A stretch of 30,106 bases of DNA from a virus. This document shows positions 232 through 30,106 of this stretch, in pieces (the first letter of the stretch is position 1; the number at the start of each line of letters is the position of its first letter). The notes under the pieces were generated by a model. The model did no database searches and had not been told where the DNA came from. It saw only the letters and a program-made list of their open reading frames with translations. The DNA lies in the IMG/VR virus record IMGVR_UViG_3300043409_001328, positions 1 to 30,106 of that record; one strand, given 5' to 3'. Position numbers and translations under genes: made by a program.

Positions 232-497
232 TGTCCGACCTGTCCGACCTGTCCGACCTTCACGCCGACAACGGTGGACAGGCGATGACGTAGACTACGC
301 CTACATCGTCGTAGGGTCTGTCCGCTCTGTCCGACCTGACTACGCCTTTCCATGTCTCTCTCTCTCTCTATACTCTCTCTAGAACTCTTAAGTAAGTCGG
401 ACACCTCGGACACGTCGGACAACGCAGGCGGGCACTACATCCTAGATGGTGGGCAACGTCGGACACGAGGTCGGACACCTAACACAAACGTCGGACA
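232..497. repeat. Candidate replication origin: 9-bp iterons in inverted clusters
   Basis: The 9-mer TGTCCGACC occurs as three perfect tandem copies at 232-240, 241-249 and 250-258, then a degenerate and a perfect tandem pair at 319-327 and 328-336. The complementary orientation (nnTCGGACA) appears as three tandem copies at 395-403, 404-412 and 413-421, then at 457-465, 469-477 and 489-497. Between the two clusters, 337-394 is CT-rich and lower in GC than the rest, with a TCTCTC run and CTTAAG, as expected for an unwinding element. A 10-bp direct repeat GACTACGCCT lies at 293-302 and 338-347, and an 11-bp palindrome at 289-299. The array sits just downstream of VapE and PrimPol genes. Iterons flanking a low-GC element are typical of plasmid and phage origins; the assignment here is inference from arrangement. 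No credible gene lies in 26-506. Confidence 0.65.
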
Positions 498-506
498 CGA
501 CGCTGG

Positions 507-1760
507 CTAGGTGGCGAGGTTGTACCCGTGAACGCGCTTCCCGTTCCGCATGACCTTCCCTGCGGCGTGAAGTCCGAGCTGGCGGATCAACTTGCCGAGG
601 CGTTGCCCGTCGCGAGACTGTGGAGGCGTGAGGTAGCCGAGAGCCGACCACGCCTCGGCGATGGTAAAGTCGTGCCGCTTGTCGCACCAGAGCTCGAACG
701 GCGCGGCGAGGGGGTCGCTCACCTCGTAGCGCTGCGCGACGATGGCGCGGTCCTGCTCAAGGTCGTGATCAAGGTGCCAGCCCTCGCCCTGACGGTAGGC
801 GTGGACGGCTTCAGCCCAGAGCTGGTCGCGGTCCTGACGCAGGGTCTGCGCGTCGCACGTGGTCGTCTCGATGACCCACCAACGCCGGGAGCCCGTGGCG
901 TCCTGGAGGAACTCGTCGTCGTTCGTGGTGCCTGCGAAGACGGTCGTTCGCGGCACGTCACGCGTGTTGCGACCGTAGCTGGGACGGTAAGAGTCGCGCT
1001 GCGACGAGACGAACGCCTTCAGCGTCTGCGCCTCGGCACGACGCAGGGAGTCCAGCTCGGCGAGCTCGTAGATCCACGCGCCCTGGAGTGCGGAGAAGCG
1101 GTCCTTGCTCGCGAGGTCAATGGGCGTGTCGCGGAACCATTCCCCGCCGAGGATGGCCAGCGACGTGCTCTTCCCGCTACCCTGCCGTCCCCTGAGAATG
1201 AGAACCGTATCGGCCTTGCATCCGGGCGTGAGCGCACGCGCGACGGCTTGAATGAGCCACGCGCGGCCCATCGCCTGCGTGACTCGGTCGTCGGGCGCAC
1301 CCAGATACCTTCCGCACCACGTCGAGATCCGCTCGATACCATCCCAGCTCAGGCCCTCGAGGAAGTCTGCGACAGGCGAGTAGGTGTGCCGATGCGCTGC
1401 CCACGACACGGCTTCGTGGATGACGTTCGTGGGCGCGTGGATGCCGTACTGCCTTGCGAGCGTCAGGCCGATCTCGGCTTCGTGGTGGTCGTCCACGGCG
1501 ATGACCTTCCCGTCGCGCTGGTTCCATTCAACACGCTCCGACAGGGTGTTGTAGGCGAAGGCGTCGGCCCACCACGGGTCGTGCGCGAGGATGAGCTGGA
1601 CGTTGTCGCGGTGCCCCTTCGGGTCGCCCGGCTTGACGAGGACGCCTGTCTTCGGGTCGAACTTGTCGGCGGTCCTGTCCAGCAGGTCCCACACTGCGGC
1701 GTCTCGTGCCATCGGAAGGACGGTAATTCCAGCCAAGGCGGCGAGTTCGGTATCGGTCAT
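507..1760 (-). CDS. VapE-family replicative helicase / ATPase
   Basis: This 417-residue protein is a virulence-associated-E (PF05272-like) P-loop ATPase, probably the phage helicase that works with the adjacent primase-polymerase. Walker A GRQGSGKST is at about 191-199, a Walker B-like segment YELAELDS at 231-238, and the family signature around GTTNDDEFLQDATGSRRWW is at 277-295, with conserved arginines that would contact nucleotide. The N-terminal 130 residues and the C-terminal 70 look like separate accessory domains. The ATG at 1760 is chosen because GGAGGAA precedes it and it overlaps the PrimPol stop as ATGA; an open frame runs further upstream but only shadows PrimPol. It is the last gene of the early leftward operon. 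The family is well known in phages and satellite islands; helicase activity here is inferred. Confidence 0.9.
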   Translation of the reverse strand: MTDTELAALAGITVLPMARDAAVWDLLDRTADKFDPKTGVLVKPGDPKGHRDNVQLILAHDPWWADAFAYNTLSERVEWNQRDGKVIAVDDHHEAEIGLTLARQYGIHAPTNVIHEAVSWAAHRHTYSPVADFLEGLSWDGIERISTWCGRYLGAPDDRVTQAMGRAWLIQAVARALTPGCKADTVLILRGRQGSGKSTSLAILGGEWFRDTPIDLASKDRFSALQGAWIYELAELDSLRRAEAQTLKAFVSSQRDSYRPSYGRNTRDVPRTTVFAGTTNDDEFLQDATGSRRWWVIETTTCDAQTLRQDRDQLWAEAVHAYRQGEGWHLDHDLEQDRAIVAQRYEVSDPLAAPFELWCDKRHDFTIAEAWSALGYLTPPQSRDGQRLGKLIRQLGLHAAGKVMRNGKRVHGYNLAT

Positions 1761-2689
1761 GCATTCCTCCGGAGGTGATCGACTGGCCCAGCCCAGCCGC
1801 ATGAATTGCGATGATGGCAAACAGCCGGTCCCTCGTCCACGTAGAACCACACCTCGCGTGCGCCGCACCTCGGGCAGGTGAGATCATCGACGTAGGGCTT
1901 AGCAGCTTGCCGGAAGGTCCCGCCGAGCTGAACGCCGACCTGTTGACGTAGTCCAGCGTCGTTGTCGAGCGCGGCACGAAGTGTCCGACCCAGCTCGCGT
2001 TCAGTCACGGCCCACGTGGGAGCCTTGAACTCTCGCTTTGGCTTTGGCTTTTCCTTCACGATGTCCAGAAGCCACGCCGGGGCCTCGACCATTTCGTCCT
2101 GGCATGTGCCAATGTCCGCTTCCCAGCGGTAGCTGAAGCCGCTGCGATGCACCGTAGGCGGGGCGCAGACGTACCCGCCCTCACCACGCACATCCACGTT
2201 TGGGGCGTTGACGGCCTTCAGACCTTGAGCGTTGCGAACGGGGGCCGCGTCAGTCCACCTCCAATACAGGTGGAACCCGCGAGATGTCTCAACACCGAGA
2301 GTACGCGTAAGCCCATGCTTCGCGACCTGCGCATCGTACCACGCGCCAGCCTCCGCACCGTCGATGTCGAGCACCCACACGCCGGACGCGCTCCCGGTGG
2401 CGAGGCCCACGCCTGCATGGGGCCAGCGCGTCCACCATGCCCGCACCGTGTCGGCGTCGGTCGTAGCCTTCTGCTGCCACGCTCCGAGACGCGGATGCTT
2501 ACCCCGCTGCTTCTCGCCGCAGGCCGCGCCCGATTGGCAGGCACATACCTGCGTGGCGGGGTCCACCTCGTAAAGAGGGTGGACGCGCAGACCCGCCGCT
2601 GCATACCGAAGCGCGTAATCCATTGGCGTAGAACGAGGGTGCACGCGCAACCCCGCTGCTGCATATCGCAGCTCGTATTCCAGACTCAT
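1757..2689 (-). CDS. Bifunctional primase-polymerase (PrimPol) with C-terminal zinc finger
   Basis: A 310-residue PrimPol-like protein likely to make primers and DNA at the phage origin. An N-terminal cysteine cluster (C49, C51, C57) precedes GKHPR at 63-67. The catalytic metal motif is VLDIDG at 107-111, and SRGFHLYW at 136-143 plus DVRGEGGYVCAPP at 166-178 match the family core. A C-terminal zinc ribbon has C272, C275, C291 and C297. The N-terminus holds a 20-residue tandem duplication: YELRYAAAGLRVHP at 5-18 and YALRYAAAGLRVHP at 25-38, each with its own ATG (2689 and 2623). The start is therefore uncertain; 2701 is also possible and none has a strong ribosome binding site. It overlaps the VapE gene by four bases. 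Confidence 0.88.
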   Translation of the reverse strand: MSLEYELRYAAAGLRVHPRSTPMDYALRYAAAGLRVHPLYEVDPATQVCACQSGAACGEKQRGKHPRLGAWQQKATTDADTVRAWWTRWPHAGVGLATGSASGVWVLDIDGAEAGAWYDAQVAKHGLTRTLGVETSRGFHLYWRWTDAAPVRNAQGLKAVNAPNVDVRGEGGYVCAPPTVHRSGFSYRWEADIGTCQDEMVEAPAWLLDIVKEKPKPKREFKAPTWAVTERELGRTLRAALDNDAGLRQQVGVQLGGTFRQAAKPYVDDLTCPRCGAREVWFYVDEGPAVCHHRNSCGWAGPVDHLRRNA

Positions 2690-2716
2690 GTACCCGTGCA
2701 TCACCGTGGGGGAAGT

Positions 2717-2741
2717 GGGGGGAGGGAATACCCCTCCCCCC
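2717..2741 (-). other. GC-rich stem-loop between HTH gene and PrimPol
   Basis: Perfect 10-bp inverted repeat GGGGGGAGGG / CCCTCCCCCC with a five-base loop, just after the stop at 2752 and about 30 bases before the PrimPol start. There is no T-run after it on the minus strand, so classic termination is doubtful. The only purine-rich Shine-Dalgarno-like tract near PrimPol lies inside this stem, so it may limit or time translation. That role is inference. Confidence 0.55.
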
Positions 2742-2751
2742 GAGCGGGGGA

Positions 2752-3282
2752 TCAGCCCGCGTCCCACGGGGACATCGACACGGTAACGCGCTTCGCTTCC
2801 CGGCGTCCACGCTTCAGCGCGGCCTCACGCTCACGTTTCTTCGCCTTCCGCTTCGCGAGGACCCTCTCCCAGTTCACGAAGCGCATCACGCAAGCGTGCG
2901 GGGATCGGCCCATGAGCTTCCCGATCTGCGGGTACGTCATGCCCTCGGCTCGCAGCTTGTAGAGCTTCTTCGTCTCCGCGTCCGACCAGGGCTTCTTCAC
3001 CGCGAGGTGGATGCCGAGGACCTTCCGCACCGTGTCGACCGTGCGGTGCAGCTGGCCCGCTATGTCGAGGTCGCGGACGCCCGCGGCGTGGAGCTCCTCG
3101 ATCTGCGCGCGCTCCTCAACAGTGACGGCCACGAACCATCGCAAGCCGAGGTCACGGCACCGCGTCCGAATGGAGAATACCGTTCTGTTTAGCGCGAGGC
3201 CGATCTCCCGTGCGGTCTTCCCCTCGTCGTGCAGTCGACGGAGTTCGAGAAGCTGGGAGCGTGTCCACGGTCTACCGGGCAT
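2752..3282 (-). CDS. Triple helix-turn-helix DNA-binding protein with basic tail
   Basis: This 176-residue protein contains three successive HTH/Myb-like modules: about 5-47 (starting PWTRSQLLELRRLHDEGK), 54-92 and 97-139 (starting PWSDAETKKLYKLRAEG). Each has the pattern of a tryptophan or aromatic start, a leucine-rich helix, Gly, then I-G-x-x-L-x-R followed by a recognition helix. A strongly basic tail (about 140-168, rich in KR and E) would add nonspecific DNA contact. It overlaps its paralogue upstream by 11 bases and lies just before PrimPol. No enzyme motif is visible. A role as regulator or as origin-binding initiator is inferred from its neighbours; its exact family is not recognised. 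Confidence 0.75.
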   Translation of the reverse strand: MPGRPWTRSQLLELRRLHDEGKTAREIGLALNRTVFSIRTRCRDLGLRWFVAVTVEERAQIEELHAAGVRDLDIAGQLHRTVDTVRKVLGIHLAVKKPWSDAETKKLYKLRAEGMTYPQIGKLMGRSPHACVMRFVNWERVLAKRKAKKREREAALKRGRREAKRVTVSMSPWDAG

Positions 3283-3808
3283 GCAGACCTCGCGTGCGCT
3301 TGTACGTCGAGATGACGTACCAGTGCCGCCCCACGTGCTCCCCGATGGCGCGGACGCCGAGACCTTCGTTCAGCTTCGCGTCGACCAGCCGCCGCTCATG
3401 CTCGCTCAGGGCAGCGTAGCGCGCGTTCTTTCGCCCGGTGACCTCGACCATCGCGGCCTCCTTGTTGGCCGTGCCGACGTACTGCGCGACGGCGTCGGGT
3501 TGCCTCCCGAGGGCCGCTCCAATCTCCGGCCACGTCGCACCATTCGCGCGCATGTCGCGGGCCTTGGCGAGCTCGCTGGGGCGCCAGTGACGGTAGGTGT
3601 ACTTGGGCGGGACGGCAAGCGGCACCACGACCTCTACTAGGTCACGCGCGGACCAATCGGCGTCCTTGAGGACGGCGACCATCGAGTGCATCGCCGACTC
3701 ACTGCGCCCGAGGCGCTCTCCGACCTCGCGCCAGGAGAGGCCCTCCTCGCGTAGCTGGCGAGCACGCTCGAACTCTGACGGACGCCATGGCGTGTTCGTG
3801 CGGGTCAT
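3272..3808 (-). CDS. Triple helix-turn-helix DNA-binding protein (paralogue)
   Basis: A 178-residue protein with three HTH modules at about 7-49 (PWRPSEFERARQLREEGLSW), 73-114 (HWRPSELAKARDMRANGATW) and 133-174. Modules one and two are close copies of each other, sharing WRPSE, AR and an LGR before the recognition helix, which indicates internal duplication. The whole protein is a paralogue of the next gene downstream, with the same number of modules but no long basic tail. Its start overlaps the upstream stop as ATGA, so translation is coupled. It is likely a sequence-specific DNA-binding protein; homeodomain-like or Myb/SANT annotation is plausible. Target sites are unknown, but the 9-bp repeats at 232-497 are candidates. 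Confidence 0.75.
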   Translation of the reverse strand: MTRTNTPWRPSEFERARQLREEGLSWREVGERLGRSESAMHSMVAVLKDADWSARDLVEVVVPLAVPPKYTYRHWRPSELAKARDMRANGATWPEIGAALGRQPDAVAQYVGTANKEAAMVEVTGRKNARYAALSEHERRLVDAKLNEGLGVRAIGEHVGRHWYVISTYKRTRGLHAR

Positions 3809-5180: not shown

Positions 5181-5584
5181 GTAAGCGCCTTCGCGAGCGC
5201 GGCCCGCTGGTACCCAATCCCGCGGCTTTCCAGACGGGTGACGATGCAGCCAGCGTCCTCGAGGACCTTCGCGTACAGGGCGCTTCCCACGAAGTCCACG
5301 CGGCAGTTGCGCCATCCCTGCGCCTCGACCATGCGGACCAGCTCGGTCACGTGAACGTGGTGCGCCTCGGTGACGCGGTGCACGGCCTGCGCGTCGTAGC
5401 TCTCTACGACCTTGTCCATCTGGACAATGCCGTAGCGCGCGCTGAGCACGTGAACCTCGCGAGCGATGCCGCTCTCGCGCTCGACACGTCGCAGCGTCGA
5501 CCACAGGGGACCCGTGTACAGGTCCGCGACGCGATGGGCACCGGGAAGCTTGCCCGCGCCGCACTGCACGATGAGGGGGCTCAC
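5177..5584 (-). CDS. DUF6884-like / YaaA-type nucleoside-associated protein
   Basis: A 135-residue protein starting at the GTG at 5584, which overlaps the upstream stop (GTGA). It opens with LIVQCGAGKLPGAHRVADLY, followed by TGPLW at 24-28 and VHVLSARYGIV at 44-54. This order (Cys-Gly-x-x-Lys-Leu, then LYTG, then LSA-x-x-G) is the hallmark of DUF6884 and related proteins, which are linked to modified-base or nucleotide chemistry and turn up in phages. A specific reaction cannot be named. The C-terminal half predicts a Rossmann-like alpha/beta end. It sits in the early operon next to small membrane and RusA genes. Confidence 0.65.
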   Translation of the reverse strand: MSPLIVQCGAGKLPGAHRVADLYTGPLWSTLRRVERESGIAREVHVLSARYGIVQMDKVVESYDAQAVHRVTEAHHVHVTELVRMVEAQGWRNCRVDFVGSALYAKVLEDAGCIVTRLESRGIGYQRAALAKALT

Positions 5585-5706
5585 CACGCGAACATCAGGA
5601 ACACGATGACCATGACGGCGGTTCCGCCGAAGATGGCGTCTCCGTGAAGGTCCCACACGTAGCGCGGGTCATGCCAGAGGCAGCGGATGGTGTCGTAGAA
5701 GCTCAT
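5581..5706 (-). CDS. 41-residue single-pass membrane protein
   Basis: This frame starts at an ATG with an excellent AGGAGG five bases upstream and ends in a TGA that overlaps the next GTG start. The product begins MSFYDTIRCLWHDPRYVW and ends with a hydrophobic segment of about 15 residues (GTAVMVIVFLMFAW), which could cross the membrane. It is the first gene of this coupled gene block. No family is recognised. Small early membrane proteins in phages often serve superinfection exclusion or host takeover, but that is only analogy. Confidence 0.7.
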   Translation of the reverse strand: MSFYDTIRCLWHDPRYVWDLHGDAIFGGTAVMVIVFLMFAW

Positions 5707-5786
5707 TGGGTCCTCCTGTCGTCAGGTGACGACATCCTAGAAGTACCCATATCGTGCGTAGCGCGCAAGTGGAGCGCGTGAACTTT
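5707..5786 (-). promoter_or_regulatory. Intergenic gap with inverted repeat ahead of early gene block
   Basis: Eighty bases separate RusA from the gene block below it, one of the few real gaps in the early operon. It contains GTCGTC / GACGAC with a four-base loop at 5718-5733, just before the AGGAGG of the next gene. No convincing -35/-10 pair was identified. It could be a regulatory hairpin or hold a weak promoter. Confidence 0.35.
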
Positions 5787-6215
5787 CTAGACGGGGGTCA
5801 CCCACACGTCGATGCGGCCTACGTCGGGCACGGCACGCTTGCTCATCTGGAGCTCAACTACGAAGCGGTCGTCGGCGAGCACGCCCGCCTCGACGAGGGC
5901 GTCCATGACGATCTTGCCCACGTTATCGATGTCGGGCTTCGTCGCGTACGGGATGCCGCCTGTCTCCTTGCGTATGCGCCACCTCTCCTTGTCGCACCAC
6001 GCAGGCCGTGTCTTCGGCAGGGGCCAATACGCGACGACCTCGAGCTGCACAGGCTCCGCGATGGGCTCGCCCTGGCGCTGCTCCCGCAGCATGGTCACCG
6101 CCGCCTCCATCCATGCGCGATGCTCGGGAGGCATGTAGACGCGCCCACCTCCTCGAGCTGCTCGGGGACGGGATGCGCCTCGAGGGACGAGGCCGATGGT
6201 GTAGTCAGCGGTCAC
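5787..6215 (-). CDS. rusA: RusA-family Holliday junction resolvase
   Basis: A 142-residue protein, the usual size for RusA, which cuts Holliday junctions during recombination and replication. The signature KPDIDNVGKIVMDAL is at about 93-107, with the two catalytic aspartates D95 and D97 and the conserved lysine K101; AGVLADDRFV at 110-119 supplies the third acidic site. The GTG at 6215 is chosen because it overlaps the upstream stop (GTGA); the longer open frame upstream is a shadow of the membrane-protein gene. It probably resolves junctions formed by the ERF-type annealing protein of the divergent operon. Confidence 0.92.
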   Translation of the reverse strand: MTADYTIGLVPRGASRPRAARGGGRVYMPPEHRAWMEAAVTMLREQRQGEPIAEPVQLEVVAYWPLPKTRPAWCDKERWRIRKETGGIPYATKPDIDNVGKIVMDALVEAGVLADDRFVVELQMSKRAVPDVGRIDVWVTPV

Positions 6216-6427
6216 TTGGCGTCCGTCCCGTACCCCGGAAGCGGCTTCGGCTTGTCGGTGTACATGCGGACGACGGCGAGCACCCAGAGCAGGACCAGCA
6301 TCGTACCAACCACGCCACATACCCAGCCGGGAGCGTCGAAGTGCTTGAGGAGCAGGTAGACCAGCGCCGTCGTCTGAATGGGAAGTTGCGCGGGGAGCTG
6401 GTTCCACGGGATGACGGTGCGGCTCAT
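6212..6427 (-). CDS. Small membrane protein
   Basis: A 71-residue protein with GGAGG upstream of its ATG. It has one clear hydrophobic stretch, about 35-53 (WVCGVVGTMLVLLWVLAVV), and a weaker one at 17-28, then a basic-polar C-terminus (RMYTDKPKPLPGYGTDAK). It overlaps the RusA start by four bases. Location downstream of the repressor and upstream of recombination genes argues against a holin role, because lysis genes lie elsewhere. The function is unknown. Confidence 0.65.
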   Translation of the reverse strand: MSRTVIPWNQLPAQLPIQTTALVYLLLKHFDAPGWVCGVVGTMLVLLWVLAVVRMYTDKPKPLPGYGTDAK

Positions 6428-6441
6428 GTTGCCTCCGAACT

Positions 6442-6458
6442 ATTCGATGTTGTCGAAT
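6442..6458. other. Inverted repeat between repressor and membrane-protein genes
   Basis: ATTCGA / TCGAAT with a five-base spacer lies in the 40-base gap between the repressor stop and the next start. It could be a weak attenuator or an additional operator. No T-run follows, so it is not a clear terminator. Confidence 0.35.
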
Positions 6459-6467
6459 GGTTGCCCA

Positions 6468-6689
6468 TCACGAAGCGTCCGCGCAGGCAGCCGCCATAAG
6501 CGTCACGGGGTCCATGACCAGCGCCCGCGAGAGGGCCATCATGGCCGTGGTCGAGGGGCGATACTCGCCGGCTTCCCAACGCGTGACCTGCGAGGCCGCT
6601 ACGCCGACCTGTCGGGCGAGCTCCGCGCGGCTCATTTCCATGCGCTCACGCTCTTCACGGATCGTCTTGCCGAGGGTGGGGTACATCAT
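6468..6689 (-). CDS. XRE/cI-like helix-turn-helix repressor
   Basis: A 73-residue single-domain HTH_3 protein. The helix-turn-helix spans about 19-46, with MSRAELARQVGVAASQVTRW and then EAGEYRPS, the classic family pattern. There is no C-terminal dimerisation or peptidase domain, so it is shorter than lambda cI. Two adjacent ATG codons (6689, 6686) are possible starts; neither has a strong Shine-Dalgarno. It is divergent from the recombination operon, and two palindromes lie in the 54-base gap, so it likely represses both directions. It may be a lysogeny repressor or an early-gene regulator. Confidence 0.88.
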   Translation of the reverse strand: MMYPTLGKTIREERERMEMSRAELARQVGVAASQVTRWEAGEYRPSTTAMMALSRALVMDPVTLMAAACADAS

Positions 6690-13724: not shown

Positions 13725-15350
13725 CTAGCCCTCCTGGACGCGCAGAGTATAGCGCACCGACCCGTCCGCGGCCCACGCCCTCGACTGGACAAGGCACAGA
13801 CGCTCCGTCCACGCGAGGTCCGGGTCGGTGACCGTCACGTAGTCGCCCGGCTCGACCCACCCGTAGGTCTGCGGCGCGGAATACTCAACGACGCGCGAGG
13901 GGAGAGCCCATCGCCGGGACCGCCACGCCAGCACGCGCGAGGCCGTGAGGTCGTCATGGACGATAGCCGTCTCCAGGGCGTCACGTCTCACGCCGTACCT
14001 CACGGTCGACCGCGCCAGGATGGGGTCGGACCAATAGCTGAGGGCCAGCGAGGCCGCGCCACCGAAGCGAAGTCCTCGAGGACGTGAAGCCGGGTCGCCC
14101 ACGGCCCACATTTCGCGCGTGTAATCGTCGCGCTGGGGGCTCCACCCAAAGCGTAGTTGAACCGCGTTTGCGACCTTGTCGGCGTCCTCGTAGGTCACCA
14201 TGCTTTCCCGCGCGATGTCGAGGTCGGTTGTCAGGTCCCACGTGGCGACGGCATCGATGGATGTAGCGTCCCATCGCCAGACGAGAGGGTAGACGCCCTT
14301 CGGGCCGACCATCATGGACACCGGGACCACGTCGAGGACGGCCTCGCGGATGTAGTCGGCGATAGCCACGGCATCGTCGATGTACCCACTGACCTCGAAC
14401 GCTGCGAGCGAGCTCCGCGCGAGGTTTACCCGGCCTTGATCCACCTCTTGCTCGGTGAGGGACAGAAGCCACGCGACGAAATCCCCCGCGTGCGTGAGCT
14501 CTCCGATACCCTCAGCGACAAGCCCACCGCCGTCATCCCAGACGACGACCGGAGTGTTCGTCGGCGTCCAGGGCGAGACGGAAAGGTCATCGAGGACCAG
14601 CGAGACGACGCTCCCGCCCTCGATAGTGTACTGGACCACCGGAAGAGACACGGACGTACCGTCCGCTGGGTTGAGCAGCCGTACTGTCGTAGCTGCGACA
14701 GGATGCGCGGCGATGGCGTAGACCGTGAATGGTCCCGTCATTCCGATAGCCACGATGCCTACACCGATGGCGCGAGATCCGCCCACGGTGCCGCTTCCCG
14801 GCGTGCCCAGCACCACGGGGACGACAATGCCTCCCGCGGCCACGCCGACGAGGGAATAGCCAGCGGCCACGAAGGCGTCGGCGATGGTCTGCGCCTGCAC
14901 GGAGAGGGGCTCGATAGTGCTCTCGTCCGTCAACACATCCTGTTCGATGCTCGCCTGCACGCCCTCGCCCTGGGCGCCGTACTGAGGCTCGACGAGACGC
15001 CCGCGCACGAAGGGACGACGAGCGGTCCAGGCGTCCCCGTCCGCGAGCTGGGCCAGCTCGGCCACGCAGCCGGCGAGGTCGTGACCCTGCTCAATGAGCG
15101 CGGCCACGTCGAGCCCGAGGTCAAAGGCTACACCACACGACCGCCGCGGGGCCTCGGTCGCCCACAGGTCGATGCTCTCGACCGTGTCGCTCGTCTCGAG
15201 GAGGCCGTCCGTCAGGACGATGGTCCCGCCCGCGCCGTCGTCGATGGTCATGGCCTCGTCGGTCATGTACCAGGTACCGCCCGCATAGTCGAGGCTGAGC
15301 ACCCAGCGGATAGTCCCGGATAGTTGCGCGGGCGTCCAGCGGTCGGTCAC
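13725..15350 (-). CDS. Baseplate / tail-hub-like protein
   Basis: A 541-residue protein beginning MTDRWTPAQLSGTIRWVLSL. It follows the large tail protein and overlaps it by four bases. The mixture of beta-rich blocks, repeated Gly-Gly turns and the C-terminal VEPGDYVTVTDPDLAW / YTLRVQEG segments resembles phage hub and baseplate proteins, whose C-termini often contain GDyVtvtd-type strands. The central region (YIDDAVAIADYIREAVLDVVP, about 337-357) contributes a helical domain. I infer that it joins the tail tube end to the receptor-binding parts. Confidence 0.65.
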   Translation of the reverse strand: MTDRWTPAQLSGTIRWVLSLDYAGGTWYMTDEAMTIDDGAGGTIVLTDGLLETSDTVESIDLWATEAPRRSCGVAFDLGLDVAALIEQGHDLAGCVAELAQLADGDAWTARRPFVRGRLVEPQYGAQGEGVQASIEQDVLTDESTIEPLSVQAQTIADAFVAAGYSLVGVAAGGIVVPVVLGTPGSGTVGGSRAIGVGIVAIGMTGPFTVYAIAAHPVAATTVRLLNPADGTSVSLPVVQYTIEGGSVVSLVLDDLSVSPWTPTNTPVVVWDDGGGLVAEGIGELTHAGDFVAWLLSLTEQEVDQGRVNLARSSLAAFEVSGYIDDAVAIADYIREAVLDVVPVSMMVGPKGVYPLVWRWDATSIDAVATWDLTTDLDIARESMVTYEDADKVANAVQLRFGWSPQRDDYTREMWAVGDPASRPRGLRFGGAASLALSYWSDPILARSTVRYGVRRDALETAIVHDDLTASRVLAWRSRRWALPSRVVEYSAPQTYGWVEPGDYVTVTDPDLAWTERLCLVQSRAWAADGSVRYTLRVQEG

Positions 15351-18300
15351 AGTTCCTCCTCGATGCGGACATTAGAGGTCCGGACCATCTCGCCCGTCGC
15401 GCCGTTGCCGAGCCATTCCGTACCCTGCACCGTCTCGACGCTGACCTCCGACACGATGCGACCGTAAAGGTGGAGGTCGGGGTGAACGACCATCTGCGTG
15501 GAGTTGAGCGCCACGCGCGGGAGGTGCGCCACATAGACGATGGGCGTCGAGGGCCCGTCGAGGTGCTCGACAATGCCGCGCATGAGCGCGGGCCCGTCCA
15601 TCTTCGCCGCGGCTGGCTCGGGCGTTCCCGTTGAGCTGGCGTAGAAGAAGTCGGGCGTGGTCACGGTCTGATCGACGCCGAATGCGCTCTGGTCAGCGGC
15701 GTCCGTCCAGCCGAACTCCACTGCGCGCCGCGTCGGGCCTGCGACCTGAGAGGTCCGGCGCCCGTTCGCGCCTGTCCGGAGCTCCACATTCGGCTCGGAC
15801 GTGAGCGTGCGCCCCCAGGAGTAGCGCCGCCCGAATACGGCGAGATGACCGAGGACCATCACGCCGATCTCGTAGTACGTCTCGGCGACCTGTTGCACCG
15901 GGATGGTGAGCCTGTAGGCCGAGTAGCTAGGGTCGTTGTTCCAAACGAGAAGCCCGCCCGTGGCGAGGAAGGCGCCCGCCGTCCCGCTGAGGCCAACCGC
16001 CGACACGTTACCGAAGAGGGTAGCGCGTGCATGCTTGGTGGCCGCGTTCGTCCACGCGCCCTCCGTCTGATACTGGATGGCGCGAACAGGCCCTGCCGCC
16101 GTGTCGAAGGTGAACCGCGCCCCGTCCAGCATGCCGTGCGGGTACCAGTACGTGCCCGCGCTAGAGGTGGTGTCCGGGTAGATGGTGTTGCCACGGCGCA
16201 CCCACTTAAGCCCCGACTGTCCTGCGCTTGCGTCCCACGTACCGATAGTGACATACACACCGAAGGCGTTGCGGCCTTCGAGGGTAGCCGTGCGGAAGTT
16301 CGTGCCGCCCAGGTAGAGGGCGCCGACGGGGCCCATAAGCGGAGAGACATTCGACGCCGTGGGGTCCGTCTCCCAGACGAGGATCTGAGCCGAAGCGGTC
16401 CCTGTAGAACGCCACGTCACCGACGGGGAGGTGGAGGCCAGCGCGGCGATACCGTGGCCGTACCGGGGCGCGATGGTCCACAGGTCATCGAGCGCGGCAG
16501 GTCCCCCGACCGCACGCACCCGGAGGCCGTCCGAGAGCGTGAGCGACCTCGAGGAGAAGTCCCGCCCACCGACCTGCGAGGGGATCGACAGGCCGTGCGG
16601 AGAGCTCATCTGCGCGCTGCCTTGCCACGCACAATAGCGCCAGTTCGACACGCCCTGCCCCGTCTGCCCGATGCGGACAGACTGCGCCGCCGCGATGAAG
16701 CCTGCGTCCGTCATCGCGTCGTTGGACAAGATGCGGATGAAGTCGCGGGCCACTTCATGGATGCCGTCGATCTCGCAGACCCACACCGTCGCCCTGCCCG
16801 TGCCGCCCTGGTTGCTCAGCCACGTGCGCACGTGGACATACTGCGACCCCGTGCGGTTGTAGGTCAGGCGGAGGACGCCGCTTACGTCGTCAAAGCATAG
16901 GACCTGCGTGGTCGTGACGCGCACCCGGAGACGGTACGTCGAGGTGTTGCTCGCCGCCGTGAGGATGGTCTCGGTAGCCGTGCCCGAGTCAGGGTCGACT
17001 TCCCAGAGGGCCTGCACCGTGTGCGCCGCGGTAAGCGCCGTCGTGCGCGTGTGCGTGTACGTGCGGACCTCAGCGAGGCCCGCAGTGATCTGCATCGCGC
17101 CGCCCGTCAGGGTCGTCGTTGGCGCACCGATGGTCGTGACGGTCCACCCGATGGCGTCCGGCGCCCACCACGGCTCCCACGTCATGTACGAGCCAGCCGA
17201 ATAGTCGGCGCCCATCTGCACCGCGGGGAGCATGGGCAACGTCGCCGAGGTGTACCCGGAGAGCGCCGTGTCTCCCAGCTGCGCGTCGTAGACCGTGGTG
17301 GAGTCGACCGTGTGGATGACGTGAAGCGTGCCGGCGTACCAGACTGCGACCATCGAGGTGACGCGCTCGCCACCATAGTCGAGGCTATGGACGAGGTTCG
17401 CGGCCTGCCCCAGCACGGACCACGTCTCGCCGTCTGAGCTGCGAGCCGGGCGCACGCGGGAGGAGTTCCCCGAGTTGGGGGCGAGCGCGTAGACCTGCCC
17501 GTCCTCGTCCACGGCGGCGCACAGTTCCGTGTCGTCGCTAAGCTGGTTCCCAGCGCTCAGGGTCGTCGCGGGGGCAAGTAGCCCTACCTGCACAGGGTCC
17601 ACGTCGGACCAGCGACTGTAGGCGCTCCCAAGGCGCTTGCTGAGGGTCGTCGATGTGGCGCCCCACGTGCTCCTCGAGGAACCGCAGTACACCACGCCGA
17701 AGCCGACATCGGGGATGGCGTAGATGTCGTGCACGCCGCCCGTGTGGACGCTTGCCGCGTCGGTGCCGGGTACGGCCTCGACCAGCGCGTAGCTCATGCC
17801 CTCGTCGGCGCTGGCGTACTGCCAGAGCGTGTCGGGCACGGTCGCCGCGGAGACGCGCACGGCGAGCATCATCAACACCTGCCCGCCCTGGTAGGCTGCA
17901 CGAAGACGCCGAACGGTCGTCGTCGTCGTGTCGATGTACGCCGGGAGGGCGGCGCCGCTCTGTAGGGCCCACGTCCCGCCGTCGTCGTCGCTCGCGTAGA
18001 CCCGCACCTGAAGGCCCGCGCTCGCGAGGTCGTCGTAGGCGACGAGAAGCAGCAAGCGGTCGGGCAGCTCGAGCAGACAGGAGTGGAGCGGTTGCCCCGT
18101 GGCCGAGCTCGACACCACGTTCGTGATGGTTGTCGCGCCGCTCTGGTCGCGTCGATGCACCACGCATGTCTGCACCACGCCGAGGGCCACCGTGCTCTGA
18201 GCCGACACGAGGCGCGTCCCCTTCTTCGTGTAGATGGCGTGCGGGTAGGTATAGAGCGGGGTCGCGCCGCCGCTACCCCACGCGTGAACAGGCTCGAAGC

Positions 18301-18607
18301 CCGCATAGCCGAGGGGCCCGTCCCAGCCTTGCCACTGCCCGCCCGTCTCCTGCCACGCGAAGGCGCCCGCACGGATGGCGTCCGTCGTGACCGCGCCGCC
18401 TGCGCGCACGGTCTGGACGAGGATCGTCGTGTCGGCCTGCGTGCCGCTGCTCTCCAGGACGAGAGACGTAGCCGAGGACGGTGCCGGAACTCCCGGCTGC
18501 GGCTCGGCCTGCGTGTACGTCGAGCCGGCGCCCGTCTTCGACGGCGCGATGCGCGGGTCAGGGATTAGGATGCCCCGGAGGGCGTCGGGCGTGAAGGCGG
18601 TACCCAT
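15347..18607 (-). CDS. Large tail protein with Asp-box (BNR-like) repeats
   Basis: A 1086-residue protein, the largest in the window. Asp-box-like motifs occur at about 205-213 (ASDDDGGTW), 266-273 (ASADEGMSY) and 389-397 (RSSDGETWS). Such motifs sit on the turns of sialidase-type beta-propellers, so the first 450 residues may form a propeller that binds or trims surface sugars. The middle (TALTAAHTVQALWEVDPDSG and on) is lectin-like in composition. The last third is baseplate-like, ending in a VRTSNVRIEEEL stretch. It follows the tape measure, where distal-tail and receptor-binding proteins are expected. Catalysis is not shown. Confidence 0.65.
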   Translation of the reverse strand: MGTAFTPDALRGILIPDPRIAPSKTGAGSTYTQAEPQPGVPAPSSATSLVLESSGTQADTTILVQTVRAGGAVTTDAIRAGAFAWQETGGQWQGWDGPLGYAGFEPVHAWGSGGATPLYTYPHAIYTKKGTRLVSAQSTVALGVVQTCVVHRRDQSGATTITNVVSSSATGQPLHSCLLELPDRLLLLVAYDDLASAGLQVRVYASDDDGGTWALQSGAALPAYIDTTTTTVRRLRAAYQGGQVLMMLAVRVSAATVPDTLWQYASADEGMSYALVEAVPGTDAASVHTGGVHDIYAIPDVGFGVVYCGSSRSTWGATSTTLSKRLGSAYSRWSDVDPVQVGLLAPATTLSAGNQLSDDTELCAAVDEDGQVYALAPNSGNSSRVRPARSSDGETWSVLGQAANLVHSLDYGGERVTSMVAVWYAGTLHVIHTVDSTTVYDAQLGDTALSGYTSATLPMLPAVQMGADYSAGSYMTWEPWWAPDAIGWTVTTIGAPTTTLTGGAMQITAGLAEVRTYTHTRTTALTAAHTVQALWEVDPDSGTATETILTAASNTSTYRLRVRVTTTQVLCFDDVSGVLRLTYNRTGSQYVHVRTWLSNQGGTGRATVWVCEIDGIHEVARDFIRILSNDAMTDAGFIAAAQSVRIGQTGQGVSNWRYCAWQGSAQMSSPHGLSIPSQVGGRDFSSRSLTLSDGLRVRAVGGPAALDDLWTIAPRYGHGIAALASTSPSVTWRSTGTASAQILVWETDPTASNVSPLMGPVGALYLGGTNFRTATLEGRNAFGVYVTIGTWDASAGQSGLKWVRRGNTIYPDTTSSAGTYWYPHGMLDGARFTFDTAAGPVRAIQYQTEGAWTNAATKHARATLFGNVSAVGLSGTAGAFLATGGLLVWNNDPSYSAYRLTIPVQQVAETYYEIGVMVLGHLAVFGRRYSWGRTLTSEPNVELRTGANGRRTSQVAGPTRRAVEFGWTDAADQSAFGVDQTVTTPDFFYASSTGTPEPAAAKMDGPALMRGIVEHLDGPSTPIVYVAHLPRVALNSTQMVVHPDLHLYGRIVSEVSVETVQGTEWLGNGATGEMVRTSNVRIEEEL

Positions 18608-26528: not shown

Positions 26529-28296
26529 CCGGAGTCTCCGGGGTGGCGATGACGAAACTTCCGCCAACCGTACCCATGAGAGTATCCGCGGCGGCAGGGT
26601 CCATGTTGAAGAACTGAACGAGCATTTCCACGCCAGTCGCGCGGGGTAGCTCGCCCTTCGCAACCGAGGTGATGATGCCCTGCGCGGCCTGTACCTGTGC
26701 GCCATTCAGCGCAACGGCGCTAGCGGGCTGACCCGCTGCCGTCGCGGCGGCGGCGACACTGTCGGCAGGCGCTGCCGTATCGGCGGTCATCTGCTCCTCA
26801 GCGGTCGGCGCCATCTCTTCTTCGGAGGTCGGGGCGTCGCCCTCCTCCTCCACGTCGGCCTCGTCGGCAGCTTCGTGCTCGAGCTCGCGCGCCTTGTTCA
26901 TCGCGTCGATCTCGGCGAGCATCGCCGCGGCGTCCTGTTCCGTAAGCGAGTCGTCAAACAGGCGCAGAGCTTCGACGCGGGTCATGAGTCCAGCATCCAG
27001 CAGTTCGAGCGCGTGCTTGCGGCGCGCGTCGAGCTCTGAGCCTGAAAGGGGAATGGAGCGATACTGAACCGAGTAGCCGCCCTCCGGGTACTGCGTGCCG
27101 AGGACGCGGTTCAGAAGGATCGCCGCCTTCATCACGAGCTCCTCGTCGCTCTCCCTGAAGCTCTGCGCGTAGGACCGTTGCGCCTCGCGCTTGCCTTCGT
27201 TCGACAAGGCGATGGCGTACCCAGAGCGCGCCGTGCCGCCCATACGCTGGATGTCGGCAGGGGAGACGCCCGCATCCTGGGCGAGGCGATTCGCGCAGGC
27301 CGCGATGGTCTGCTCGAGGATCGTCACGTCCTGTCCGGCCTGCCACTGCCCGATGACGGGTTGCTGCTCGTCCGTTGCCCGAAGCATGAGCACGGTAGCC
27401 GGGTCCGACACGACCTCGCGCCGCGCCGACGAGACGCCGCCCTCGAGCGTGGCGCCCTGCGGCTCCGCGCCGACGATGTACCGCTGCGGCCAGCTCGAGT
27501 CCTTGATGGCGTGAAAGAGCATCGAGTAGGACACGGCGATGTTCAGCGAGCCCTCGACGACCTCGACGCCTTCATACGCGTCCCACAGACGGTCGCCGAT
27601 GCGCTCCGCATGGTACAGGACGTAGGGCAGCACGGGGCGCCCGTCGTTCCGGCGGTACGGGTAGGCAGCACCCGAGTAGTTGCCGCCCAGGTAGACGTTG
27701 CTCAGGTCCTCGCCCATCTTCCCGCCGTCCACGTAGGCGCGCACCTCGTAGATCGGGTTCTCCGGGTTCGAGATGTCGAGGACATCCCACGTCCAGCGTG
27801 GCTTGCCATCCACGTCCAGGCGCTCGCGCAGTTCGCTCACCGACACCGGGTAGTCGGGACGGTCGGCGAAGGACCGCGCGACGGTCATGTCCGGAGCGAC
27901 AGGCCGGAACGTGAGACGCCCATCGGCGGCGACGTGGATGCGCTGCCAGTACTCACGGCACCCGACCACCAGCTGCTGAAAGCGGTTCATCGTCGCCCAC
28001 AGGCCGGACCGCTGGATCTTCTCGACGAGGTCGACCGCTGCGGGCATGCGCGTCGGGTGCGTCACGTCGGGAGGCATGACGTACAAGGCGCTCAGCGACC
28101 GGGCGATCTGCCGGAAGATGTTCGACGACATGTCCGGGTAGCCCCACGCGGCTTTGCGAACTGTCCCGAGGTGGATCTGTAGGCGGTTGTGCAGGTCCTC
28201 TTCCCACGTCCCCTCGAGGAGGCGACGGCGCAGGCGCGTGTGCTCGATGCGTCGGATCTCGTAGGGCTCGCTCGAAATGACGGGGATTTGGCTCAT
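26515..28296 (-). CDS. Portal protein
   Basis: A 593-residue portal, located right after the large terminase and overlapping it by four bases. The core contains IRRIEHTRLRRRLLEGTWEE and the portal-like DLSNVYLGGNYSGAAYPYRR and IAVSYSMLFHAIKDSSW regions. After about residue 460 comes an acidic linker (EADVEEEGDAPTSEEEMAPT) and then a helical domain with AVALNGAQVQAAQGIITSVA and PRATGVEMLVQFF, a module known from portals of several phage groups. It forms the DNA gate and the docking platform for terminase and adaptor. Confidence 0.87.
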   Translation of the reverse strand: MSQIPVISSEPYEIRRIEHTRLRRRLLEGTWEEDLHNRLQIHLGTVRKAAWGYPDMSSNIFRQIARSLSALYVMPPDVTHPTRMPAAVDLVEKIQRSGLWATMNRFQQLVVGCREYWQRIHVAADGRLTFRPVAPDMTVARSFADRPDYPVSVSELRERLDVDGKPRWTWDVLDISNPENPIYEVRAYVDGGKMGEDLSNVYLGGNYSGAAYPYRRNDGRPVLPYVLYHAERIGDRLWDAYEGVEVVEGSLNIAVSYSMLFHAIKDSSWPQRYIVGAEPQGATLEGGVSSARREVVSDPATVLMLRATDEQQPVIGQWQAGQDVTILEQTIAACANRLAQDAGVSPADIQRMGGTARSGYAIALSNEGKREAQRSYAQSFRESDEELVMKAAILLNRVLGTQYPEGGYSVQYRSIPLSGSELDARRKHALELLDAGLMTRVEALRLFDDSLTEQDAAAMLAEIDAMNKARELEHEAADEADVEEEGDAPTSEEEMAPTAEEQMTADTAAPADSVAAAATAAGQPASAVALNGAQVQAAQGIITSVAKGELPRATGVEMLVQFFNMDPAAADTLMGTVGGSFVIATPETPVAGS

Positions 28297-29684
28297 CCGA
28301 TCCTCACCGATTGGGGCACGTAGAGTCTTTTAGTCACAAGCTCGATCGCGCCATAACGTAAACTGTCTATCCCGTGCTTATGGTCGTCGTCGTCGCCTTC
28401 CCACAGGCGCAGGTCCTCGATGAGCTGCTTGCACCGGGGATGCACCGTGAAGTCGCCGCGGAGCATGGCGCTATGCAGAATGCGTGAGCCCTCGTAGATC
28501 GAGCCGGCGGGTTTCCACGCCGTGTGGATGCGGAAGCCGAGCGTCCCGATGGGGAGCCGGAGCTCGCGCTCAAAACCCTGGATGAGGAGCGCGTTGGACT
28601 TCTTGCCGCCCCATCGCTTGCCGCCGTGCTTTCGGTCGCCCACCCAGCGGTCCACTGACTCGATCCGCATGTTGTTCCGGCGAAGCATCGCGAGGATGTC
28701 GCGCGCGTCCTGTTCCGGCGTTGTCGCGCCCGTGGAGATGCTTTGGTCGAGGACCCAGAACCGAGGGTTCCCCTCGACGCCGCCCTCGCGTGAGACGACG
28801 ACCAGCGTGGCCACCTGAGAGCCGCCCTCGCTGCCGTGGTCGATGCCGATGCCGACCTGGCATTCGCCCTCGGGCAGAAGGTCCGACGCGTGGATGGCGG
28901 GATCGAACGCTTGAAACACGCGACCCGCGGCAAAGCCGGAGTCCCAATCGCCGTGGATGCGCTGCCGGCGTTCCATCGGGAGGACCTGCGACTCCAGTCG
29001 GTCGATGTCCGCTTGCTCGAGGAGGGGACGCCCGCCGATGGGCGTCGTGTTCTCAACCGTCAGCGGAAAGTGCATGTCCTGCACCACGCCACGCTCCGCG
29101 AGCTCCTTCAACCACCCAAGGGGTGCGCCTACCGGGGTGAGCGTCACGGCGATGCGCCCGCGGTTTCGCATGACGCGCGGGGCGAGCTCGGACCACACCT
29201 CACGCGGCGGCGGTTCATCGATGAGCACGTAGTCGATGGTCGACCCCGCCAGCGCGAGCGCGCCCTGGTTGACGGTACGGATGCGGAGAACGCTACCGTT
29301 CCGGAACCTCACGATGGGCACCTTGCCGACCAGACCACGGCCCGGGATGAAGGTGGTCTCTGGGTCGATAGCCCCCTTGGGGAGCAGGTTCCATAGCTTC
29401 TGCTGGATGCCTAGCGACTGCTCCCAGCTGACGACCACGATCCACGCCTCAATCGGCGCGGCACGGACCAGCGTGAAGGGATGCGCGCCGAGGCAGCGGT
29501 AGATGCAGTCGACGAGGCCCATGGTCGTTTTGCCGACCTGGTTGCCCGACCGCGCGAGCTTGATTGGCGCCGTGCTGCTTAGGAAGGTCAGCTGCGGCTT
29601 CGTCGGCACGAAGTAGGCGAGGGGGTCGGCGACGGCCCGACGTTGCAACGTGTCGAGCCCGGTGGCGATGGCCGCGAGGTTCAC
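28293..29684 (-). CDS. Terminase large subunit
   Basis: A 463-residue packaging ATPase and nuclease. Walker A GNQVGKTT is at 47-54, Walker B YVLIDE at 152-157, and the nuclease region has D282 (in IGIDHGSEGG), an aspartate at about 350 and the HGIDSLRYG motif around D440. Its GTG start overlaps the small-subunit stop as GTGA. It is one gene away from the right end of the contig, which is where cos phages place terminase. It would cut concatemers at the 9-bp overhang site proposed at the genome ends. Confidence 0.93.
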   Translation of the reverse strand: MNLAAIATGLDTLQRRAVADPLAYFVPTKPQLTFLSSTAPIKLARSGNQVGKTTMGLVDCIYRCLGAHPFTLVRAAPIEAWIVVVSWEQSLGIQQKLWNLLPKGAIDPETTFIPGRGLVGKVPIVRFRNGSVLRIRTVNQGALALAGSTIDYVLIDEPPPREVWSELAPRVMRNRGRIAVTLTPVGAPLGWLKELAERGVVQDMHFPLTVENTTPIGGRPLLEQADIDRLESQVLPMERRQRIHGDWDSGFAAGRVFQAFDPAIHASDLLPEGECQVGIGIDHGSEGGSQVATLVVVSREGGVEGNPRFWVLDQSISTGATTPEQDARDILAMLRRNNMRIESVDRWVGDRKHGGKRWGGKKSNALLIQGFERELRLPIGTLGFRIHTAWKPAGSIYEGSRILHSAMLRGDFTVHPRCKQLIEDLRLWEGDDDDHKHGIDSLRYGAIELVTKRLYVPQSVRIG

Positions 29685-30049
29685 CCGTCCGTCCCGGTGA
29701 CGAGACGCAGGGGAGCCCCACCACGCCGCATGGCGATAGCCTCCTCGAGGCGCTCCAGGTGGGGAGCCGGCAGCTGCGCGATGGCCTGCACGATGATGCC
29801 CAGAAGCTGCTCGTCCGACATCGTGTCGTCGGGACGGTTGGCCTTCTCGATAGCCGCGTCGAGGTCCACGCGCGTCTGAAGCGCCCGGAGCTTCAGCGCG
29901 GAGCAGGCTTGCCAGGAGCGCGAGTCGATGGCGTCCTGCGCCGCTTGCTCTAGTTGGACAAGTGAGGCCGTCAGGTATTCGATGGTCGTCATCGTCGGGG
30001 CGAGGGCCGCGTCGAGCTTCTTGTAGGCGCTGCGCTTGTTTGCGGCCAT
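29681..30049 (-). CDS. Putative terminase small subunit
   Basis: A 122-residue mainly helical protein, directly upstream of the large terminase and first after the genome end, where small terminases sit. It has a basic N-terminus (AANKRSAYKKLDAALAP), a central coiled region (SLVQLEQAAQDAIDSRSWQA) and a C-terminal helix with LPAPHLERLEEAIAMRRGG. No obvious helix-turn-helix is seen. AAGGGG precedes its ATG. Assignment is by position, size and the adjacent terminal repeat. Confidence 0.7.
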   Translation of the reverse strand: MAANKRSAYKKLDAALAPTMTTIEYLTASLVQLEQAAQDAIDSRSWQACSALKLRALQTRVDLDAAIEKANRPDDTMSDEQLLGIIVQAIAQLPAPHLERLEEAIAMRRGGAPLRLVTGTDG

Positions 30050-30097: not shown

Positions 30098-30106
30098 GCT
30101 AACGAG
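30098..30106. repeat. Right copy of 9-bp terminal direct repeat (putative cos overhang)
   Basis: GCTAACGAG, identical to positions 17-25, forms the last nine bases, 49 bases beyond the small terminase start. Joining the two ends with a single copy would give a circular genome of about 30,081 bases. Confidence 0.65.

Follow-up and report, generated by a model that had tools for sequence, protein, structure and literature searches.

What does a dense array of short repeats do when it lies between a helicase gene and the cohesive end of a phage genome? The array in question occupies positions 232-497 of the window, by which we mean the whole stretch of 30,106 nucleotides that was analysed (IMG/VR record IMGVR_UViG_3300043409_001328). 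A first-pass annotation, made from the letters alone, had described eleven 9-bp iterons in two inverted clusters around a CT/AT-rich segment, and had suggested an origin. We read the array as the origin from which a cos-type tailed phage replicates, following the rep-ori plan of SaPIs and other PICIs, with a probability of roughly 85%. The features on which the argument draws are as follows.

17-25, no strand: cos end with the cohesive 9-nt sequence GCTAACGAG (CTCGTTAGC on the minus strand), a second copy of which is at 30098-30106
232-258, plus strand: left iteron triplet, three copies of TGTCCGACC at 9-bp spacing
274-281, minus strand: unconverted site TGTCCACC, identical to the unit that the relatives have at the site aligned with it
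319-336, plus strand: left inner iteron pair (TGTCCGCTC, TGTCCGACC)
337-394, no strand: putative CT/GA-rich melting core (stability computed; similar in the ten relatives tested)
395-421, minus strand: right iteron triplet at 9-bp spacing (TGTCCGACT, TGTCCGAGG, TGTCCGACG)
448-455, minus strand: degenerate unconverted site TGCCCACC (relatives: TGTCCACC)
457-465, minus strand: iteron TGTCCGACG
469-477, minus strand: iteron TGTCCGACC
489-497, minus strand: iteron TGTCCGACG, 9 nt past the vapE stop codon
507-1760, minus strand: VapE, SF3/AAA+ initiator helicase, 417 aa from a start conserved in relatives; candidate iteron binder
1757-2767, minus strand: PrimPol (AEP) primase-polymerase, a separate gene upstream of vapE
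28293-29684, minus strand: terminase large subunit
29681-30049, minus strand: small ORF overlapping TerL at the other cos end, taken as TerS by position, with no family match of its own; L007-L009, of the same terS clade, encode a TerS that is 99-100% identical

The main genes are all on the minus strand, on which the order runs cos, putative TerS, terminase large subunit, capsid and tail genes, RusA, two multi-helix-turn-helix (multi-HTH) proteins, PrimPol, VapE, array and cos. Pfam profiles matched both Prim-Pol (6e-37) and VapE (5e-79), which bears out the earlier suggestion that these two genes adjoin the array. As a terminase large subunit, capsid, tape measure and tail proteins are encoded, the element is a tailed phage and not a PICI; it has virion genes of its own, whereas PICI satellites parasitise a helper phage. 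No close host or prophage came up among the genome contigs, and a search of the phage collection at blastn sensitivity returned no DNA match. A 1086-aa ORF at 15347-18607 (minus strand) had no Pfam match.

The cos neighbour is real. The minus strand both begins and, adapter apart, finishes with CTCGTTAGC, and the relatives' contigs begin at the same place as the window's cos end, as filled-in cohesive ends predict. Bases 1-16 of the window, which we take to be an Illumina adapter remnant (GACGCTCTTCCGATCT), directly precede the cos end, suggesting that the contig ends where the physical DNA ended. The first-pass annotation had placed the array next to cos, and this adjacency stands, but it is incidental: a gene separates array and cos in the relatives L047 and L048, and so the array follows the helicase gene and not cos. 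Elsewhere in this phage group, the two ends of G016 (the start of L041 and the end of L051) carry differing cos-like sequences, CCCGTATGGTT and CCCGTTAGGCT, possibly through chimeric assembly, which distinguishes it from G001, G007 and G012.

Eleven sites with a TGTCC core were found within 232-497, five on the plus strand (starting at 232, 241, 250, 319 (TGTCCGCTC) and 328) and six on the minus strand (395-403, 404-412 (TGTCCGAGG), 413-421, 457-465, 469-477 and 489-497), in line with the eleven copies of the first reading. Nine of the eleven copies match TGTCCGACC with at most one mismatch, five of them exactly. When the window was scanned in 300-nt blocks, 201-500 was the top repeat block with 11 copies, compared to 4-5 in a typical block and 9, of a CG-rich k-mer, in the runner-up. 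Rfam and tRNA scans gave no match. The strict nine-base phase claimed earlier is present in 232/241/250, 319/328 and 395/404/413, with the single copies on the right irregularly spaced; it is not a universal trait, as the relatives L062-L064 use 10 bp.

The CT/AT-rich segment between the clusters is the least stable DNA of the window over 40-60 bp. The least stable 40-mer is 356-395 and the least stable 60-mer 339-398, and the core at 340-395 has an AT content of 59%, against a GC content of about 66% for the genome. In all ten relatives tested, the least stable 60-mer of the available sequence fell within the array core or at its margin. Two iteron sets that flank a low-stability segment are a feature of the SaPI/PICI rep-ori layout, present here in both arrangement and computed stability.

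The neighbouring helicase points the same way. VapE is an SF3 helicase homologous to the SaPI Rep initiator, as shown by a sequence match to PriRep1 (7pds) at 2.4e-44 and by structure comparison. A model built on 60 sequences (pLDDT 92), which replaced one built on 6 (pLDDT 47), matched 7pds over its full length (Foldseek 1e-30; VIA Z 34.2, 386 residues, rmsd 3.3, model residues 21-417), while the next best structural match reached Z 15.5. Its C-terminus (about 352-417) is predicted to form a winged helix (helix-helix-helix-wing). Phage P4 alpha is comparable in that it is an SF3 helicase with a C-terminal winged helix that binds short iterons (ori/crr); it differs in its fused Toprim/DnaG-type primase and two separate cis sites, whereas the primase of the window is a separate AEP Prim-Pol. 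The P4 iteron, which we take to be GGTGAACAG, resembles GGTGGACAG of L001, a close relative of the window phage.

In SaPIs, the origin lies directly behind rep, with iterons flanking an AT-rich region and recognised by the Rep C-terminus (PMC6092414, PMC7581432). The first-pass annotation had judged an array of this kind next to cos to be non-standard for a phage; this needs correcting, since the plan is that of SaPIs and PICIs (PMC6092414, PMC7581432). The window phage shares with them a homologous initiator helicase whose C-terminal domain binds DNA (predicted here), an origin region that directly follows the initiator gene on its 3' side (9 nt away in the window, and likewise placed in relatives) and two iteron sets flanking a melting region, and the unit varies between elements as it does among VapE phages. 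It differs from SaPIs and PICIs in encoding terminase, capsid and tail proteins itself, in having as primase an AEP PrimPol with a gene to itself, in its GA/CT-rich core and in an array that ends about 200 nt from cos. The putative origin of the SCCmec Cch2-CCPol-MP system is similar in that the C-terminal domain of its initiator helicase binds direct repeats downstream of the operon, the counterpart of the binding predicted for the window, and that its primase acts at the putative origin (PMC7581432). It differs in having three AAGTG iterons, a helicase of another subgroup and another primase. Thus the class of origin was already known, and, judged from the genomes compared here, it appears to extend to autonomous tailed phages of several host groups. 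A literature search, with most subscription journals outside it, found no paper joining VapE, phage, origin of replication and iterons, and an earlier description is possible.

Is the arrangement kept in related phages, a check that had been proposed for it? VapE of the window is 90%, 89% and 84% identical over 417 aa to those of L001, L002 and L003, respectively, and all three carry 12-13 copies at the equivalent place behind vapE, in the same inverted plan. More distant relatives, L047/L048 (VapE about 37% identical) and L062-L064 (47-48%), also have an array directly behind vapE, built from the units GGTGGCACCCTCCCCAACC and TGTCCC(C/T)ACC, respectively. In G012, G014 and G016, of the same phage group, a helicase of about 800 aa (by Pfam a PrimPol-D5 fusion in G014 and G016) takes the place of VapE, and the array is directly behind it, with units that vary in the letters adjoining GGACA. 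What recurs is the position behind vapE, the inverted clusters, the low-stability core and a copy number of about 11-13, while the sequence of the unit turns over. An iteron-type origin is thus well supported by comparison.

We extended this to 91 VapE loci, taken both from viral contigs and from genome contigs. In 50 of the 91 (6.0 expected) before dereplication, and in 28 of 61 (4.05 expected, P 1.6e-17) after dereplication at 80% identity, the 400-nt stretch following vapE was strictly the best repeat block, with same-locus blocks and dinucleotide shuffles as controls and with the reservation that lying outside genes could by itself be enough to raise a repeat score. Roughly half of the loci left after dereplication have their best block elsewhere. 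Clear arrays were found in five of the seven named isolates examined, each with its own repeat unit: Synechococcus phage S-LBS1 (17 copies), Marinobacter phage PS3 (11), Staphylococcus phage 47 (10), Bacteroides phage F2 (10) and Corynebacterium phage IME1320_01 (9). The signal in BK745P1 was weak, and Pseudomonas phage Haddon had no array. A single rule, to inspect the DNA directly behind the helicase gene, therefore gives origin candidates for many phage genomes. Scans for exact patterns of the tandem units were set aside; they matched many unrelated contigs, mostly with 2-5 copies and no VapE.

What stands out most at this locus is that the iteron letters switched in concert between phages whose initiators are near-identical. 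With a VapE 84-90% identical to that of the window, the nearest relatives use the unit TGTCCACCC, compared to TGTCCGACC in the window, and counts of exact TGTCCGAC and TGTCCACC within the arrays are 9 and 1 in the window, 0 and 10 in L001, and 0 and 9 in L002. When the eleven sites were aligned with those of L001, the TGTCC core had changed at 2 of 55 positions and the next two bases (positions 6-7) at 17 of 22, while 41 of the 173 spacer positions (24%) differed. Two sites of the window, 274-281 and 448-455, retain the letters AC. As the spacers can still be aligned, the change was concerted and site by site, not a replacement of the whole cassette. TGTCCACCC is probably the ancestral unit, since three relatives have it against one.

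Origin and initiator specificity thus appear to change together. Of the 10 window-specific residue changes in VapE, N411H is the only one in the recognition region, which is no significant enrichment (P 0.53), so that covariation of protein and unit was not demonstrated at the level of residues. A residue-level code for the unit was rejected on this result and because the distant VapE of L160, whose array has the TGTCCGAC unit, lacks His411. We would give even odds to a broader proposal, in which the SaPI/PICI-type origin is a general class among VapE-helicase phages and, in one lineage, its specificity switches by concerted two-base replacement in almost every iteron, while core, spacing and melting element are preserved and the initiator stays about 90% identical. 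If this is true, unit switching could render sister phages replication-incompatible, or could allow escape from satellites or decoys relying on the former iterons. The pair formed by the window and L001 (VapE 90%, TGTCCGACC against TGTCCACCC, two copies unconverted) is a natural iteron change that makes the co-evolution of initiator and origin directly testable, as few residues and two bases are involved.

Could the array instead bind another protein? It might be a packaging element, similar to cosB, recognised by the small terminase, as its distance to cos is about 200 nt and the gene nearest to cos on the other side is the putative terS. Such a site would be fixed in position relative to cos and its unit would track TerS. 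However, the distance to cos varies (L047/L048 have the intervening gene), in many different groups of phages the array trails the helicase gene, and L003, with a TerS 87% identical to that of the window, has another unit, common to it and L001 (TerS 70%). We consider this explanation very improbable. The same applies to an operator or enhancer through which the two multi-HTH proteins would control transcription across cos into the late genes. These proteins (D5-like, HTH_38) are encoded upstream of PrimPol at 2752-3808 (2752-3282 and 3272-3808, minus strand), and the array has one promoter-like match on its plus strand; yet that match is weak and directed away from the late genes, and the proteins come and go between relatives. 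G001 has no homologue of either despite the same array plan and an 89%-identical VapE, and L074 has a 73%-identical HTHa with an unrelated unit. The HTH proteins, offered earlier as binders to be footprinted, are therefore unlikely in that role. As neither they nor TerS track the array or its unit, VapE is the best candidate for the iteron binder.

Two further explanations were considered. In pRN1, whose ORF904 is likewise a PrimPol-SF3-winged-helix initiator with its origin directly behind the gene, that origin is a 100-nt stem-loop without iterons (PMC4234260). A large stem-loop could carry the function in the window too, with the clusters as its arms and primary sequence less important: the arms 232-257 and 396-421 are 88% complementary, and the DNA folds somewhat better than shuffled versions (z only -2.27). 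Inverted iterons, however, produce such arms by default. Pairing alone would permit different letters in each pair, whereas almost every copy, whichever its orientation, acquired the same new letters, and head-to-tail copies are identical although pairing does not require it of them. With tandem as well as inverted iterons present, we regard a pRN1-type origin as a most unlikely account. A partly coding array has next to no probability. An ORF could run on the minus strand from an ATG near 352, behind AGAGAGAGAGAC, to 18; the frame is open (18-422) and a purine-rich tract precedes the ATG. But the frame stops after about 43 codons in L001, the ATG is missing in L003 and in L062-L064, and the repeats also occur on the other side, outside the frame. 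ORF 18-352 was accordingly rejected as a coding sequence not conserved in relatives.

Returning to the origin reading, we infer the following course of initiation at the array from what is known of SaPI Rep and SCCmec Cch2. VapE hexamers would bind both inverted clusters of iterons by means of the winged helix at the C-terminus, upon which the strained CT/AT-rich core between them would melt. VapE would then load and unwind outwards, and the separate PrimPol would prime the opened strands. Cumulative GC skew across the window had no significant turning point and left the array unmarked (range not above block permutations, P 0.16); it was set aside as evidence in either direction.

Several minor observations were made along the way. 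The PrimPol frame opens with a tandem duplication of an N-terminal motif (YELRYAAAGLRVHP / YALRYAAAGLRVHP; 2590-2767, minus strand) that is single in L001. L160 and L140 have distant VapE genes followed by arrays with the TGTCCGAC unit of the window, a likeness apparently due to convergence. In L166, L174 and L178, dense arrays of TGTCCGACC with 9-11 copies lie beside a long gene that reaches about 580 aa; this gene matched no VapE or D5 profile, and perhaps represents another initiator family with the same plan. Finally, 15-bp repeats form long arrays in three VapE-bearing contigs, with a repeat of about GAGGTNCGCACCGCC in L126 (~6100-6600) and L141 (~1500-1900), and a similar-length repeat of the CCAAGGTNCGCGCCA type in L094 (~5500-5900), which apparently code for short peptide repeats such as RTAEV.
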